From Streptomyces sp. NBC_00690 (GTDB lineage Bacteria > Actinomycetota > Actinomycetes > Streptomycetales > Streptomycetaceae), in NCBI RefSeq assembly GCF_036226685.1, contig NZ_CP109009.1:6723501-6787500 (forward strand): DNA of 64,000 bases, in the 5' to 3' direction. Below are positions 25,974 to 35,269 of the stretch, in pieces. Made by a program: the position numbers and the translations under genes. Below the pieces are notes generated by a model. That model searched no databases. It was not told the origin of the DNA and saw only the letters and a program-made list of their open reading frames with translations. Each line of letters opens with the position of its first letter. Within the stretch, counting starts at the first letter, position 1.

Positions 25974-27576
25974 TCAGACGGCGTTCGGCAGCCTGCGCTG
26001 CTCGCTCCGCCGCTCCAGCGACACCGGGTCCGGCTCCGGGTGCGGCGCGCACGACGCGCGCCGCACCGGCGTCCTCCCCTGAAGGAGGTACTCCTCCAGA
26101 TGGGCGTTCACACAGGCGTTGGCGCCGCCGCCGATGCCGTGCGTACCGGCGTCCTCCTCGGTGATCAGGACCGCCCCCTTCAACCGGCGCGTCAGTTCCT
26201 TCGCCCCTTCGTACGGGGTCGCCCCGTCCCGCTCCGCCGCGAGGATCAGCACCGGCGGCAGCGCGCCCCGCCGGGTGCCCACGTCCAGGGGCTCCTGTCG
26301 AGGCCCCTGCCAGAAGGCACAGGGCAGGTTCATCCAGGCGTTGTCCCAGGTCTCGAAGGGCGCGGTACGGGCGAGTTCCGTGTTGTCCCGGTCCCACACC
26401 GCCCAGTCGGTGGGCCAGGGGGCGTCGTTGCACTCGATGGCGGAGTAGACGGCCCGCGCGTTCTCCGACTCCTTCGCCGCCCCGGTCCGCGGTGCGGCCT
26501 GAGCGATCAACGGCTTGTCGTTGCCGCGCAGATACTCCGAGAGGGCCGTGGCCCTCGGTACCCAGTAGTCGTCGTAGTACCCCGCGCCCAGGAACGCCCC
26601 GTGCAACTCGCCCGGTCCCACCGTGCCCCCCGCGGGCTCCACGGCCAGTCGGGCACTCGCCCGTTCATAGCTGCGCGCCACCGCATCGGGGGTCGCGCCC
26701 AGCCCGTAGACGTCGTCGTGTTTGGCGATCCAGGTGCGGAAGTCCGTCCAGCGGCGCTCGAAGGCGGTGTTCTGGTCGAGGTTGCTCCGGTACCAGATCT
26801 TCTCCGGGGCCGGGTTCACCGCCGAGTCGAAGACCATGCGACGCACGTGGGAGGGGAAGAGGGTGGCGTACACCGCACCGAAGTAGGTGCCGTAGGAAGC
26901 TCCCATGAAGGTCAGTCGCTGCTGGCCGAGTGCGGCCCGCAGCACATCGAGGTCACGCGCGTTGTTCAATGAGGTGTAGTGCCGCAGCGCGCTGCCGTTC
27001 CGTCGGGCACAGCCCTCGGCGTATGCCTTTGCCCCGGCGATCCGCCGCTGCTTGTCGGCGGGGGAGGGGTGGGTCGGATCCGGGGTCGGGCCCTGGGCCC
27101 GCTCGGACGGCTCCTCACAGGACAGCGGCGCGGAACGTGCGACACCGCGGGGCGCGTAGCCCACCAGGGTCGTAGGCGCGGGCGATGCGCTTCCACTCCG
27201 GGAGTTGTCCGGCCAGGGGGAAGTACATGCTGGATGCGCCGGGACCGCCCGGGTTGTAGACGAACGCGCCCTGGTAGTCGGCCGGATCACCGCTCGCCGG
27301 GACCCGACTGACCGTGAGGGAGATCTGCCGGCCCGACGGCTGTGCGTAGTCCAACGGCACTTCGACGGCGCCGCATTTCACCGAGGAGGGGAGCCGCTCC
27401 ACCTCGGGGCAGGCATCGAACGAGATGCCCGCGCTGGCGGCCCGTGCGGCTGCGATGGCGGTGCCGTGGGACTCGGGCACGGTGGTCGTGGCGCCGCCCG
27501 CGGGCGGGACGATCAACGTGCTGATCGCCAGGGAGCCGAGGCCGATGAGGACCCCGTGTCGTGCGCGTGCTCTCAT
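25974..27576 (-). pseudogene. Secreted TAP-like alpha/beta hydrolase, frameshifted
   Basis: Two overlapping minus-strand frames together make one protein. The first (from ATG 27576) gives a signal peptide, DACPEVERLPSSVKCGAVEVPLDYA, FVYNPGGPGASS (oxyanion loop) and ERIARAYD-like sequence; the second carries on as LVGYAPRGVARSAPLSC, GASYGTYFG (nucleophile elbow), LILAAERDGATPYEGA (Asp) and DAGTHGIGG (His). They join if one base is removed from the GGG run at 27167-27169, so the break is a single-base insertion. The family includes secreted tripeptidyl aminopeptidases of Streptomyces. It may be a recent true pseudogene, a phase-variable site or a sequencing error; intact length would be about 520 aa. 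Confidence 0.8.
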
Positions 27577-27804: not shown

Positions 27805-28653
27805 TCAGCCGCAGCCGCAGCCGCCGCACCCTCCGCAGCCGTCGCCACCACCGCCGTCTCCGCCACCGTCCCCGCCCCCTGTCGTGGCGGCCATCAGGGG
27901 CACCGCCACGGAAGCGGCGAGGAGCGTCCGCAGCAGCGGATGACCCGCGGCGCTCGCCCCCTGCACCGCCACCCGCTGCCCGGGAGCCGTGGAGCCTGCG
28001 GAGCGTCGGCCGTAGTCGCGCAGGGCCCGCAGCCCCGCCTTCGTCACCCGCCGACTGACCCGGCGCGCCATCAGATGCCCGGTCACGATGCCCCAGACCA
28101 GCGCCGGCAGCACCAACAGGACGAAGGGCAGGGCGGGACGGTCCCAATCATGGACATGGCTGACGACGGTGAGCGTGGTAGCGGTCGTCAGCCCCATCCA
28201 GCACAGGGTCGCCTGGCCGTGCCCCCAGAGAACGGGCCCCGCGCCGATGCGCCGGAGCGACATCATCAGTCCGCGATCGGTCAGCCCACTGGCGATGCCG
28301 GTCACCGCTGGCTTGCGCATCACCTTGTACCGCAGCGTGTTCAGTTGGTGGTCGTCGGAGTTCGCCAGATGTGTGAGCACGGCCCGCTCCACGGGATCGT
28401 GGGAGACGTCGTTGTGTACGCCCACGATGCCAGGTCCGCCTATCTGTAGGCGTCCGTCCGCGTGCATGGCTGTCACCGCTGTGTCCACAACCCGTACCGG
28501 ACCGCCACTTAGGAAGGCCGCCTCGTAGACACTGCGGATCTCCTCCGCCACCCCACGGGCCCGACTGTCCCGTTGGGCCCGGACGACGGTGACGATCAGC
28601 GGGATCGACGAGGCCGCGATCGCGATCCAGACCAACACGGCTGCTGCGTCCAT
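27805..28653 (-). CDS. TIGR04222-domain membrane protein with Gly/Asp/Cys C-terminal tail (putative MNIO substrate)
   Basis: A 282-aa protein: N-terminal membrane helix (about 4-25), a soluble TIGR04222-type domain with AAFLSGGPVRVVDTAVTAM and GRLQIGGPG (46-80), a membrane hairpin (about 146-192), a basic region, a last hydrophobic segment (240-257) and a 24-residue tail of only Gly, Asp and Cys (259-282) with Cys 273, 276, 279 and 281. ATG 28653 lies 3 bases after the MNIO stop, with GGAGG 7 bases upstream inside the MNIO end, so translation is coupled. I infer that the tail is the peptide modified by the partner enzyme. No known function for the globular part. Confidence 0.78.
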   Translation of the reverse strand: MDAAAVLVWIAIAASSIPLIVTVVRAQRDSRARGVAEEIRSVYEAAFLSGGPVRVVDTAVTAMHADGRLQIGGPGIVGVHNDVSHDPVERAVLTHLANSDDHQLNTLRYKVMRKPAVTGIASGLTDRGLMMSLRRIGAGPVLWGHGQATLCWMGLTTATTLTVVSHVHDWDRPALPFVLLVLPALVWGIVTGHLMARRVSRRVTKAGLRALRDYGRRSAGSTAPGQRVAVQGASAAGHPLLRTLLAASVAVPLMAATTGGGDGGGDGGGGDGCGGCGGCGCG

Positions 28654-28656
28654 GGA

Positions 28657-29988
28657 CTACCTCCGTAGAAGTCTCATCCGTGCCGCCCGGGCGATCCGTG
28701 CGGCACGCCCGGGTGGGCGGGTTGCGATGCGATCCTCCCACCACCGGGTGAGCTGGCGCCGGGCCCGAGCGTTGGCGGGCCGGCCGGAAATCAGCAGGTG
28801 TTCGGCGAAGGAGAGTGCGTCCTTGCGGTATCCCGAGCCCATCGGGCGACCCTTGGCGTACGCGAGGAACGCGGGCCGGTAGCCGGGGCCGAGGATCTCG
28901 GGCAGTTCCGGGGCGATGCGGGCGACGACGGACGCCCGCTTGGCGGCGAGCGCCCGCCGCTGCACCCGCAACCGCTGGTGGTCGAAGCCCTCGGGGGCCG
29001 GACCGCCCGCCACCAGGGAGGCGAGGAGCGCCGTCTGGCAGATGCCGAGCCGGTCCCGGGCCGATGGATCGGCCGATCCGGGCGATCCGGGCGATGCGTC
29101 GGCTTCCCGGTCGGTCGCGGTCGCCGAAGCCGGGCGGGTTGCCGGCGGAGCCTGCACCGCGCCTCCCACCGCCTCCCTGATCGCCGCCAACTCACCCGCC
29201 AGCGCGCCATGCACCTGGTCGGATGGCGGAAAGTCGTCGTCCCGCTCCAGCAGCACCCCCGGCGGGCTGACCCGGGACGCGAGTTCCCGCAGCACCTCCA
29301 GGACGGGTTCGGTGACCGGATGGGCGTGGGTGTCGTGCCAGACGCCGTCCCGTTCCTCGCCGCCTGCCACATGGACGTACGCGATCGCTTCCACCGGGAG
29401 TTCGGCGAGGGCCTTTGCCGGGTCCTCGCCACGGTTGACGTGGTTCGTGTGCAGGTTCGCCACGTCGATCAACAGGCCAACCCCGGTGCGCTCGACGAGT
29501 TCGGCGAGGAACTGCCCCTCCGTCAGCTCCTCGTCGGGCCAGGAGATCAGTGCGGCGATGTTCTCCAGCGCCAGCGGTACGGGCAGGGAGTCCTGCGCGA
29601 TCCGGACGTTCTCAACCAGGACCTTCAGGGCGTCCCAGGTCCTTGGCACCGGGAGCAGATGACCGGCCTCCAACTGCGGGGACGCGGTCAGTTTCCCCCC
29701 GGCCCGCACGAACGCGATGTGCTCCGTGACCAGGGGCGCGCCCAGTGCGGTCGCCCGCTCGGCGAGGTCCTTGAGCCGCTGCTCGGACGGCCGGTCGGCG
29801 TCGCCGAGCCCCAGGGACACCCCGTGTGGCACGACGGTCAGACCGCGTGCCAGCAGCCGGGACAGCGAGTCGGGCAGATGGCAGGGGCAGATGTTCTCCG
29901 CCACCACCTCGACCCAGTCGAGCCCCGACAACTCCTCCACGGTCCGTGCTATCTCCGGACGCCAACCGATGCCCATGCCGAGTGCCAT
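28657..29988 (-). CDS. MNIO-family (DUF692) multinuclear iron oxidative enzyme with C-terminal extension
   Basis: A 443-aa protein of the MbnB/TglH family, TIM-barrel enzymes with two or three irons that oxidise cysteine-containing ribosomal peptides. Candidate ligands are VPHGVSLG (His55), TEHIAF (Glu89/His90), LENIAAL (Glu142, Asn143), [11 protein letters not shown] (Asp175, His180, His183), YVHVAGG (His206), DTHAHP (Asp219, His221, His223) and LLERDD (Glu248). Residues 281-310 are an acidic/Pro-rich linker and 311-443 an added helical domain ending in a very basic tail. Start ATG 29988 places GIGWRPE at residue 6, as usual; in-frame ATG 30060 would add 24 residues. It is directly followed by, and coupled to, the TIGR04222 gene. 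Confidence 0.87.
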
Positions 29989-30062
29989 GCCGCCCCCTGC
30001 GGTGTGTCCCCAACTCCCGGTCGCGCCTCGGTCACCGCCGAGGACGCGTGGTGGTGTCATCG

Positions 30063-30142: not shown

Positions 30143-30922
30143 TCAGGGGCTGAGCGAGGGCTCCGGCCTGCCGGTGTTGATGGCGCCGGGAGGGCCGGGT
30201 GGTACGGACGGCTGGGAGGTCAGCTGCTGGCTGCCGTTGGGCTCCACCGGCTGCGGAGCGGCGGGCACGTTCCCGCCCGGCGGCGGCGGCCCGGTGGGGC
30301 TCGCCTTCGCACCCCCGGCCGCTTCGTTGGCGATGGCGTCGAAGTCGACCATGCCGGTCCCCTCCAACATGGTGATGTGGTCCAGCACCGTCTGGTTGGC
30401 ATCGCTCGCCAACTGCCGTATCAGCGTGTTGCGCGTGGTGTGCCGGACCTGGGCGATCAGCGAGAAGACCTTGCCATGGGCGTTGCGCAGGATGTTGGCG
30501 AACTTGAACTCGTACTCGCGTCCGCTCGCCGCCGACAGCTCCCGCAGCCACGCCTGCTGCTGCTCGTTCGGCTGGTTGGGCAACTCCACCCCGAGCTTGC
30601 CCGCCACCTCGCGGGCCCGTCGGTCGAGATCGGCGTGGCCGACGACGAGGTGGTCGCCCGTGTCCTTGATCGCCTTGGTCGGGGCCCGCTCGATCGCCTG
30701 CTGTCCCGCCGGCAGCTCCCAGAGCCCGGCCAGCCGGACCTTCACCAGGAAGTCCCGGTCGGTGGCCGACAGCGGGCCCCACTGCGTCGCCACGGTCGAG
30801 GCGTTCAGATTGTCCTGACCGGTTCCCGAACGGTCCGCGTACGACCACACCGGGAAGGCCAGGGCCCCCACGGTGGCGACCAGGGCCGCAATGATCAGAG
30901 CCGTCCCGTTGATGCGCCGCAA
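30143..30922 (-). CDS. DUF4142 (ferritin-like fold) exported protein
   Basis: A 259-aa exported protein: signal peptide ALIIAALVATVGALAFPVW, then DUF4142 (LSATDRDFLVKVRLAGLWELPAGQQA about 52-77; NEQQQAWLRELSAASGREYEFKFANI) and a Pro/Gly-rich tail from about 205. Start TTG 30922 (second of two TTG codons) has GGGAGG at a proper 7-base distance; ATG 30961 upstream lacks one. It is on the same strand as the MNIO pair but 154 bases away, with a small hairpin between, so co-transcription is uncertain. Confidence 0.78.
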   Translation of the reverse strand: MRRINGTALIIAALVATVGALAFPVWSYADRSGTGQDNLNASTVATQWGPLSATDRDFLVKVRLAGLWELPAGQQAIERAPTKAIKDTGDHLVVGHADLDRRAREVAGKLGVELPNQPNEQQQAWLRELSAASGREYEFKFANILRNAHGKVFSLIAQVRHTTRNTLIRQLASDANQTVLDHITMLEGTGMVDFDAIANEAAGGAKASPTGPPPPGGNVPAAPQPVEPNGSQQLTSQPSVPPGPPGAINTGRPEPSLSP

Positions 30923-31029
30923 CAAAGTACCTCCCGAGCTGATGTGCCAGAGGCCAACCAACCGTCAACGGAGCCTGGGCGCCATCGTTTTGGCGGTACT
31001 GAGAGGTACGCAACCTACCCGTCGGGCGT

Positions 31030-31791
31030 TCAGCGGTACAGCGCGGGATGATCAGCGATCACTGTCCGTGACCCGGCTTCGATCTCGGTGAAGCCGGCGT
31101 CCCGGACGACCGGCAACCCACTGGACGCCAGGCGCGCCCAACGCTCCGCGTCCGCCGTGCGCACGGCCAACGGGAAGCCTGCCTTCGCCCACTCGGTGCG
31201 GTCCGCGTCCGATAGCTCCCACCAGGCGAGCTGGGCGCCGTGCCCGGCCTGTGCCATCGCCTTGCCCGCCGACATCTCCACCTCCGGGCTGAGCCACAGC
31301 ACCGGCACTCCCGCTGCCGGCTGAGCGGGCGGCTCCGGGTCCTCCAGATCCGTCCCCGACACCTGGAGCTTGGCCAGTTCCTTGGGCCAGCCGTCCAACG
31401 GGACCGGAGGGAAGACCCGTACCTCGCACTCCCGCCCGGTGACCGTGATGCCCGGCAGGGCGGACGCCTTGCGCCACTCCGCACCGCGCGCCCGCCGCAC
31501 CACCTTGCGGATCCGGGCGTCCTGCCAGTCGCTGACCGCCCGCGCCCATTCCCCCTCGCCCACCGACCGCTCGTCGCCGAGCAGGGTGAGCACCGCGCGG
31601 GCCGCGGTCTCCAGCGCATCCGTGCGGGCCGGGGGAGCCGTCTTCTCGATCCGCACCACCAGCGGCAGGACGAACTGGGGCGCCGTGTCGCGATCGACGT
31701 TCTCGTGCTGGAACGGACTGTCCTGGCTTGGCGGGACATTTGAAGCGGACGGGTTCGCGGGATTGGCGGGTTCTACGTTTTCGCTGCTCAC
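31030..31791 (-). CDS. Peptidyl-tRNA hydrolase, PTH2-like
   Basis: A 253-aa protein whose C-terminal ~95 residues match PTH2: VLWLSPEVEMSAGKAMAQAGHG corresponds to the family's 'KMSxGKxAAQxxHA' motif. PTH2 proteins release peptides from stalled peptidyl-tRNA. The N-terminal ~140 residues (LPLVVRIEKTAPPARTDALE, DWQDARIRKVVRRARGAEW) are an actinobacterial extension. GTG 31791 has no ribosome site but CACACT (31804-31799, minus strand) 7 bases upstream, so probably leaderless. Divergent from the AIM24 gene. Confidence 0.8.
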   Translation of the reverse strand: MSSENVEPANPANPSASNVPPSQDSPFQHENVDRDTAPQFVLPLVVRIEKTAPPARTDALETAARAVLTLLGDERSVGEGEWARAVSDWQDARIRKVVRRARGAEWRKASALPGITVTGRECEVRVFPPVPLDGWPKELAKLQVSGTDLEDPEPPAQPAAGVPVLWLSPEVEMSAGKAMAQAGHGAQLAWWELSDADRTEWAKAGFPLAVRTADAERWARLASSGLPVVRDAGFTEIEAGSRTVIADHPALYR

Positions 31792-34192: not shown

Positions 34193-34390
34193 ATGGGTGT
34201 CATGGACCAGCCGGACGAGGCGTACTGCGCAACACCGGAACGACCCGAAGCGGCCCCGGACGAGGGGCCGCCCTTCGCGGAGTGCGTGCTCTGTCGGGAG
34301 CCGACGGAGTATCCGGAGTCGGTGCGGGGCAGCACGCTCTGCCCGGTCTGCGAATGGCAGGAGGCACAGCGGACGGCGTGCTCCGGCTGA
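34193..34390 (+). CDS. Small zinc-ribbon-like protein
   Basis: A 65-aa acidic protein with AECVLCREPTEYPES and TLCPVCEWQEA, two CxxC pairs about 20 residues apart that could bind one zinc. No other domain. ATG 34193 fits a leaderless mRNA; ATG 34202 is the alternative. Convergent with the deacetylase gene, 12 bases from its stop. Confidence 0.65.
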   Translation: MGVMDQPDEAYCATPERPEAAPDEGPPFAECVLCREPTEYPESVRGSTLCPVCEWQEAQRTACSG

Positions 34391-34402
34391 GCCGTCCATG
34401 GG

Positions 34403-35269
34403 TCATCCGGTGGTCGCCCCGCGCATCACGTCGGAGACCCTGACCATGCGGTAGCCGCGTTCCCTCAGCTTCGGCACGATGGTGCGGATCGCCTGCTCGG
34501 TGACGGGCGCCGCGCTGCGCGTGCAGTGCATGACCACCACGGAGCCGGGCTTCACTCCCGCGAGCACCTGCTCGGCCACGGCGTCCGCATCGCTGGCGAA
34601 CGCGTCCCCGCTGACCACGTCCCATTGCACGGCCGTCACCCCGGTGGGTGCGATCGCGCGCAGTGCGGTCGTGTCGTAGCAGCCCCCCGGGAACCGGAAG
34701 TACGGCACCACCCGTTCCGCGCCGACCTTGCGGAATGCGGTGAACGCCCGTTCCACATCGGCCCGCATGGCGTCCTTGGCGACGGTCGGCAGGCCGTAGC
34801 AGGGAGCGGCGAAGGCGTGATGGCTGTAGGAGTGGTTGGCGATCTCGAAGAGGGGATCGGTGCCGATCGACTTCGCCTGCGCCGGGTACTCCTCGGCCCA
34901 GCGGCCGGTCATGAAGATCGTCGCGGGGACCTTGAGGCGTCGCAGAGTGCTGATGAGTTCCGGGTTGTCGAAGTGTTCGCCGCGGGCTGCCCGTGGACCC
35001 TGGTCGGCGGTCATGTCGGCGTCGAAGGTGAGTGCCACGGTCTTCGGCGCCGTCGCCGAGGCGGGGGCGCGCTCGAAGACCGGTGTGAGGCCGGAGCGCG
35101 GTCGCGCGAGTTGGGGCGCGGGCGCTGCCTCGGGGGCGGCACGGGGACCGGCCCCGGTGCGGGGGGCAGTCGGTTCGGTTCGGTCGGTGGGCTCCCGTGC
35201 ACCGCCGCAGGCGACGAGTGCCGCACCGAGGACCGCCACGGCGAAGAGTCTTCGTACGGAAATGATCAC
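34403..35269 (-). CDS. Polysaccharide deacetylase (NodB) lipoprotein
   Basis: A 288-aa putative lipoprotein: signal with lipobox VLGAALVAC (Cys about 21), a Pro/Ala/Arg linker, then a NodB domain with VALTFDADMT (metal Asp), ANHSYSHHAF (His pair), YFRFPGGCYDTT and VVVMHCTR. Family members remove acetyl groups from peptidoglycan or other sugars at the cell surface. The first motif reads TFDADM rather than TFDDG, as in a recognised subgroup. GTG 35269 has no Shine-Dalgarno; TATATT (35283-35278, minus strand) is 8 bases upstream, so leaderless. Confidence 0.85.
   Translation of the reverse strand: MIISVRRLFAVAVLGAALVACGGAREPTDRTEPTAPRTGAGPRAAPEAAPAPQLARPRSGLTPVFERAPASATAPKTVALTFDADMTADQGPRAARGEHFDNPELISTLRRLKVPATIFMTGRWAEEYPAQAKSIGTDPLFEIANHSYSHHAFAAPCYGLPTVAKDAMRADVERAFTAFRKVGAERVVPYFRFPGGCYDTTALRAIAPTGVTAVQWDVVSGDAFASDADAVAEQVLAGVKPGSVVVMHCTRSAAPVTEQAIRTIVPKLRERGYRMVRVSDVMRGATTG

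Follow-up and report, generated by a model that had tools for sequence, protein, structure and literature searches.

A Streptomyces MNIO enzyme with a fused putative partner domain beside a cysteine-tailed TIGR04222 membrane protein: a conserved pair whose enzyme is often kept without the tail

Introduction

MNIO proteins are iron enzymes that oxidise cysteines. In the 64,000-nucleotide stretch of Streptomyces sp. NBC_00690 analysed here (the window), the gene for one of them is followed by the gene for a TIGR04222 membrane protein that ends in glycine, aspartate and cysteine, which raises the question of whether the end of a resident membrane protein is what this enzyme oxidises. A reading made from the letters of the window (the sequence-only reading) had proposed as much and knew of no characterised member. 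Cys-tailed TIGR04222 proteins have been proposed as MNIO substrates by in silico genome mining (Antoine et al. 2025, PMC12452194), so the core of that inference is a known prediction; its statement on characterised members stands in that none was found, and has to be amended in that the idea is in print. The locus belongs to a real, conserved system of the predicted kind, as a variant with a built-in putative partner domain, and no characterised member was found in the literature. What is new here is the fused domain and the many relatives that keep the enzyme without the tail, the pairing itself having been predicted in PMC12452194.

The locus and its neighbours

Features of the locus are collected in Table 1. 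The MNIO and TIGR04222 genes are separated by 3 bases, a spacing given by the sequence-only reading and reproduced by the ORF coordinates, and we infer that they are co-transcribed; a scan for promoters and terminators was uninformative. An in-frame upstream ATG at 30060 would give an MNIO of 467 aa instead. The last 24 residues of the TIGR04222 protein (GGGDGGGDGGGGDGCGGCGGCGCG) are made up of Gly, Asp and Cys only, again as first read. In a profile search, the genome (9.17 Mb, two contigs) matched MNIO once and TIGR04222 twice, the second TIGR04222 copy (C1:8241383) being unlinked and having no Cys in its last 60 residues.

Table 1. Features of the MNIO-TIGR04222 locus, in window positions
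Feature	Position	Strand	Residues	Basis or remark
MNIO ORF	28657-29988	-	443 aa	ATG at 29988, stop ends at 28657
MNIO (PF05114) barrel	29206..29979	-	4-261	Pfam E 1.1e-74
Putative iron ligands/active-site residues of the barrel			E27 E31 H55 H90 E142 D175 N178 H206 D219 H221 E248 D250	
Low-complexity linker, A/P/D/S-rich	29068..29205	-	262-307	Sequence reading
Putative fused partner domain (PF26136, SCO6045-like C-terminal; DUF2063-like)	28657..29067	-	~308-443	HMM, alignment
TIGR04222 membrane protein ORF	27805-28653	-	282 aa	
TIGR04222 domain	27949..28635	-	7-235	NCBIfam 115.9 bits, cut-off 43
Hydrophobic segment directly before the tail	27886..27936	-	240-256	Kyte-Doolittle scan
Gly/Asp/Cys tail, putative substrate	27808..27879	-	259-282	Cys 273/276/279/281
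DUF4142 protein, upstream, same direction	30143..30961	-		Pfam E 4.2e-18; start uncertain
PTH2-like protein, upstream	31030..31791	-		PF01981 E 4.3e-8

DUF4142-like genes, whose products we take to be ferritin-like, also stand beside the MNIO in several Streptomyces loci. AIM24, protoporphyrinogen oxidase and HemQ are encoded nearby, with an alpha/beta hydrolase gene downstream, in an order similar to that of the compared loci; no metal transporter or copper sensor was found among the neighbours scanned, a point against the reading favoured below. The alpha/beta hydrolase gene (window 25974-27576, - strand) is read as two overlapping frames (27115-27576 and 25974-27290) and is one long ORF in the compared loci, the split in the window being a frameshift or a sequencing error. 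An arrangement of peptidyl-tRNA hydrolase family, MNIO and TIGR04222 genes is named adjamnio-II in Table 2 of PMC12452194, the text of which names PF01195; in our own reading, the PTH2-like gene of the window (PF01981) is the peptidyl-tRNA hydrolase gene of that arrangement.

Pairing of the tail and the MNIO across genomes

Pairing was surveyed in 296 genomes of the class, a TIGR04222 gene being counted as linked when it lay on the same strand within 4 kb of an MNIO gene. MNIO matches came to 88 rows, of which 5 weak ones were dropped to leave 83; TIGR04222 rows weaker than about E 5e-7 were dropped, as a rule nine candidates were scored per genome, and 109 TIGR04222 rows were examined for tails. 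Linkage was found for 54 of the 83 MNIO matches; the pairing, which the sequence-only reading had put up for checking, is thus conserved. The MNIO gene comes first in all 23 Streptomyces loci and the TIGR04222 gene in all 31 others, and the pair has therefore been kept through a change of gene order; in PMC12452194, the TIGR04222 subset with C-proximal Cys follows rather than precedes the MNIO in >10% of cases. Outside Streptomyces, 30 of 31 linked loci encode one or more TIGR04222 proteins with at least 3 Cys among the last 60 residues.

An MNIO is present in 45 of the 47 genomes that have a Cys tail. The two in which none was found are a draft of 270 contigs (G067) and a genome in which the protein end looks unlike a tail (G162). 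Over the 85 genomes whose TIGR04222 genes were examined, the counts were 45, 2, 17 and 21 (Fisher p 1.4e-7, the species not being independent). That table excludes 13 MNIO genomes in which no TIGR04222 gene was examined; these are included in the following per-genome counts: 18 of the 28 Streptomyces MNIO genomes and 12 of the 47 non-Streptomyces ones gave no Cys tail, some of the MNIO proteins in these genomes being of other types (e.g. DUF2063-linked, G211 and G268). In five genomes (G085, G095, G177, G261 and G285), a Cys-tailed TIGR04222 gene and an MNIO gene are both present, more than 4 kb apart. According to PMC12452194, a third of TIGR04222 genomes are without MNIO genes, and tail-less or MNIO-less TIGR04222 proteins are listed there as well.

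The MNIO barrel and its fused partner domain

The barrel is a member of PF05114 (251.4 bits, cut-off 25). Its 12 putative ligand residues (Table 1), of a kind that binds iron in MbnB and TglH, are invariant in 74/74 actinobacterial and 107/107 Streptomyces-type loci and make up the conserved His/Asp/Glu/Asn set of the superfamily. The closest named NCBIfam models are BufB, HvfB-type and ApyH. Identity with each model was rejected on its equivalog cut-off: BufB scored 171.6 bits against 310, HvfB 135.1 against 360, ApyH 104.5 against 400, ChrH 43.9 against 600 and MbnB 33.2 against 325.

The protein extends about 180 residues beyond the barrel, and the last ~135 of these resemble a separate post-MNIO protein of other Actinobacteria (alignment pattern L..AQ..LL.ALVAG..P.GFD..RL..Q..AL..KR...VA...P.L...LG..F...F..YA..RP). 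An HMM built from the post-barrel part of Streptomyces-like MNIO proteins had two kinds of match: in other families it recovered a separate same-strand ORF adjoining the MNIO (E 1.7e-3 to 9e-29), and in family f16 it placed the domain inside the frame of the MNIO itself (E 1.6e-5 to 4e-13). A PF26136-type partner was fused or adjacent in 52 of the 54 linked loci, fused in 30 (22 Streptomyces, 8 of f16) and separate in 22 (1 Streptomyces, 21 others); the HMM did not find it in the remaining two (L094, L118). Every MNIO carried the fusion among the 80 best-scoring of 549 named loci, of which only one is not titled Streptomyces. In two Streptomyces loci, L066 (G230) and L098 (G254), the partner is a frame apart from the MNIO, as a natural split or through a sequencing error.

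PF26136 is an existing Pfam family, 'SCO6045-like C-terminal domain', and did not appear in the Pfam copy scanned, in which no family matched the partner stretch of the window. Its stand-alone homologues include, among the matches listed, proteins of Thermomonospora, Nocardia, Cryptosporangium, Micromonospora and Planomonospora, and 4 of 120 listed are also labelled PF09836. A DUF2063 match was obtained in one of 18 partner-domain members (E 0.096). Alignment of the domain with five DUF2063 proteins by hhalign gave a score of 27.0 over 44 columns in a sensible register, with a probability of only 17%; 30 column shuffles reached at most 16.8, and because the profile of the unrelated MNIO barrel also scored 19.1, the likeness is only suggestive. 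Comparison of the partner profile with PDB chains gave no significant sequence match (best E 0.2, unrelated). On its position and its DUF2063 resemblance, the C-terminal domain was taken as a putative partner domain: its place next to or joined to the MNIO is that expected of a PME-type 2 partner (DUF2063-like structure, no DUF2063 signature), its DUF2063 likeness by hhalign is weak, and the link to DUF2063 is moderate at most. If it has the partner role that we infer, the separate partner protein usual for MNIO enzymes is not absent here; HMM, alignment and homologues suggest that it is fused to the enzyme. The passages of PMC12452194 on fusions and two-domain proteins make no mention of an MNIO-partner fusion, and no other paper on one was found in a literature search short of most subscription journals. 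SCO6045, the namesake of the family, is in a transcript table of PMC4991794 (M 1.59, fold 3.01), which gives a weak hint of redox regulation.

True DUF2063 is rare, scoring above cut-off in 1 of 246 genomes of the phylum and in 3 of 30 chosen MNIO genomes (a plasmid search for DUF2063 gave 2 records, one of which was used). Four loci, L277, L278, L279 and L293 (G211, G268, G230 and G390), have a Cys-bearing protein of 169-207 aa, an MNIO and a true DUF2063 protein in that order, with one further gene after the DUF2063 gene in L277, L278 and L293. These clusters are a rare actinobacterial type, separate from that of the window.

Taken as a whole, the reading that we tentatively favour is that the MNIO, with its joined DUF2063-like partner, oxidises Cys of the tail of the adjacent TIGR04222 protein. 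A cytosolic oxidase, covalently joined to its partner, would act on the Gly/Asp(Ser)/Cys tail, and the tail Cys would probably be converted to thio-oxazole- or thioamide-type groups.

Retention of the MNIO without the tail in Streptomyces

The main, perhaps ancestral, substrate of the Streptomyces MNIO may instead lie elsewhere, in a protein acting in trans or in a TIGR04222 paralogue, with the tail as an optional second substrate or an unmodified thiol buffer. We regard this as possible, if doubtful, and the evidence on it comes mainly from loci in which the enzyme is present and the tail is not. Streptomyces have two linked TIGR04222 paralogues, A with a Cys tail and B without. The best 80 of the 549 named loci comprised 66 with tailed A, 10 with none and 4 unclassified (L224, L227 and L249, cut by a contig end, and L255, not classifiable). 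As these 80 lean to relatives of the window, an even Streptomyces sample was drawn, in which 10 of 27 loci with the window MNIO type had A and 17 were without a linked Cys tail. Loss of the tail Cys from most homologues beside an intact MNIO, which the sequence-only reading had named in advance as refuting its proposal, is therefore what this even sample shows. Among all 103 classified loci, 27 have an intact window-type MNIO and no linked Cys tail, and the two genes do not form an obligate enzyme-substrate pair in which the MNIO decays once the tail is absent. One genome with its MNIO at a contig end (G187) was scored tail-less by genome search; without it, the counts are 26/102 and 16/26.

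On an MNIO tree (FastTree), the tail label needs at least 7 changes, 4 of which are forced by starred branches; one starred clade is tail-less in 20 of 20 rows, and further tail-less rows are scattered. Median dN/dS of the barrel was 0.144 without the tail and 0.165 with it, which speaks for purifying selection on the enzyme, and the partner domain is somewhat faster (0.347 without, 0.256 with); all four are simple estimates from non-independent pairs. In G296-G299, a window-type MNIO is present and no TIGR04222 match was obtained with every candidate scored (assembly completeness not given). Neither A nor B is linked in 8 of the 103 loci, one of which is G187, with B on another contig. An MNIO that is intact and unrelaxed in tail-less loci seems to be maintained by some role other than one on the linked tail. 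Of the new results, this retention tells us most, and it speaks for a second substrate: the MNIO very probably has one besides the tail, whose modification would then not be its only job. The tail-less non-Streptomyces MNIO genomes point the same way.

Paralogue B is one candidate for the second substrate. Its TM1 C-x3-C and TM3 Cys are conserved in 64, 63 and 61 of 66 proteins, inside predicted membrane segments, and would suit a main substrate other than the tail; against this, B too is absent wherever the MNIO is found by itself. Examples of B-type genes are L103:2532-3326:- and L250:7044-7817:+. A small conserved two-CxxC protein (AECVLCREPTE...CPVCEWQEAQRTACSG; window about 34280-34480, + strand) is encoded near many Streptomyces MNIO loci. 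As a replacement substrate, this zinc-ribbon-like neighbour was rejected because it is present with and without tails, close to 48 of the 76 loci that have a tail and 15 of the 27 that do not (flank lengths differ, and absence is not proof). Eight small ORFs of L219, L220, L246 and L256 whose last 40 residues contain 4 or more Cys were judged implausible by eye.

Sites coding for CGGCGG were collected from seven genomes without linked TIGR04222 (76 sites) and from three comparison genomes, and showed no enrichment relative to the reversed pattern. In 30 loci, 40 stretches and L113 (part of the sites), nothing was recognised as a replacement CGGCGG tail, and none of 13 inspected closely had a convincing frame with a Cys-rich end. 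The coding score is a weak guide here (0.09 per codon for the window's own gene), and an SSC-type tail escapes the CGGCGG pattern. No conserved alternative substrate gene was found beside the MNIO, which, with the presence of the enzyme, usually as a neighbour, in nearly all tail genomes, tells against a main substrate elsewhere.

The tail, its placement and the remaining alternatives

The terminal CGGCGGCGCG of the window protein recurs in relatives 81% and 70% alike (P0122, P0123), in P0132, P0135, P0137 and P0158, and in three named species (L184, L186, L190) with Gly codons that are partly different, and so the tail is not a matter of chance or a frame artefact. The expectation that the tail Cys would stay while the Gly run varied held, with CGGCGGCGCG constant and the preceding Gly/Asp run variable. 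Across 108 tails, the last 40 residues contain 3-7 Cys, and 509 of 515 Cys are followed by Gly or Ser.

Topology was read from hydropathy and charge. Mean numbers of positive residues were 0-0.3 before and 2.9-4.1 after TM1, 2.4-3.3 before and 0.2-1.2 after TM2, and 0.3-1.0 before and 3.2-3.9 after TM3, a pattern that predicts an outer N-terminus and an inner large domain. Three segments were found in 27 of 30 SSC-type proteins; their tails would therefore be cytoplasmic, where the MNIO would be, and 27 of 40 related tails were placed there. Nine of 10 CGGCG-type proteins had four segments, the tenth being that of the window, with three above threshold (the one before the tail included) and one near residue 150 below it. 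The pre-tail segment was present in all 10, and because of this further hydrophobic segment the window tail would lie outside. Among 33 non-Streptomyces tail proteins, 19 had three segments, 10 four, 1 five, 2 two and 1 none, and both placements may occur. Under the favoured reading, modification of the short tail of the window's CGGCG-type protein would precede insertion of the last hydrophobic segment, after which the tail, now on the outer side, would be a soft-metal ligand or redox-active patch fixed to the membrane.

MNIO enzymes need iron, and a tail that the charge pattern puts inside in most SSC-type proteins could be an iron or copper donor that loads the enzyme rather than its substrate. 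This is improbable: the MNIO persists without the tail, and therefore loading by the tail cannot be essential, and Cys-rich proteins encoded beside characterised MNIOs are described in PMC12452194 as precursors to be modified. It is similarly hard to credit that the two genes are neighbours without a functional link and that the tail is low-complexity drift, at high genomic GC, of an end rich in Gly. Gly-rich ends are frequent in unlinked TIGR04222 proteins too, and tails differ widely in length and Cys spacing; but of 24 unlinked proteins in MNIO-free genomes, 21 have 0-2 Cys in their last 60 residues, against 3-7 in the last 40 for linked tails, CGGCGGCGCG is kept despite some changed codons, and the pairing is kept in many families despite opposite gene order.

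Significance

That a one-chain MNIO and partner modifies the tail of a multi-span protein, leaving a RiPP-like product in the membrane as a metal or redox appendage, and that a second substrate is hidden in Streptomyces, is conceivable as a combined statement, though we would not expect all of it to hold. If it is true, the substrates of MNIO enzymes extend beyond small exported precursors to the tails of resident membrane proteins. Assays could then use the natural MNIO-PF26136 fusion (SCO6045 type), an enzyme in a single chain, and the Streptomyces sets with and without the tail, in which the enzyme is equally conserved, make the substrate question directly testable. The tail-less set suggests that a widespread Streptomyces enzyme still has a missing substrate.

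Comparison with known systems

The clusters of Antoine et al. (PMC12452194) have the same MNIO beside a TIGR04222 protein with a C-terminal Cys/Gly-rich tail. DUF2063 genes are described as absent from them and PME-type 2 partners as present in at least 10%, whereas here PF26136 is fused in the window and accompanies nearly all linked loci; retention of a window-type MNIO without the tail does not appear in the passages of that paper examined. Tails are placed in the periplasm there, with which the charge bias found here would agree for four-segment forms such as the window's but not for three-segment forms.

The nearest named models are those of bufferins and oxazolins (BufB, HvfB-type MNIO, DUF2063-RRE partner), the substrates of which likewise contain Cys; bufferins bind copper (PMC12452194). 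Unlike in the window system, the precursors there carry Sec signals and the PME-type 1 partner is a protein of its own (PMC12452194). TglHI (PDB 8hci/8hi7) and MbnBC (7dz9, 7tcr) have homologous barrels (phmmer E 9e-21 and 3e-7) and are likewise enzyme-partner pairs, but with the partner as a separate protein (PMC12452194). As with the lipidated MNIO products DybA and NedA (PMC12636315, preprint), the product proposed here would stay attached to the membrane; the anchor of DybA and NedA is a lipoprotein signal, whereas that of the window would be a multi-span membrane protein.
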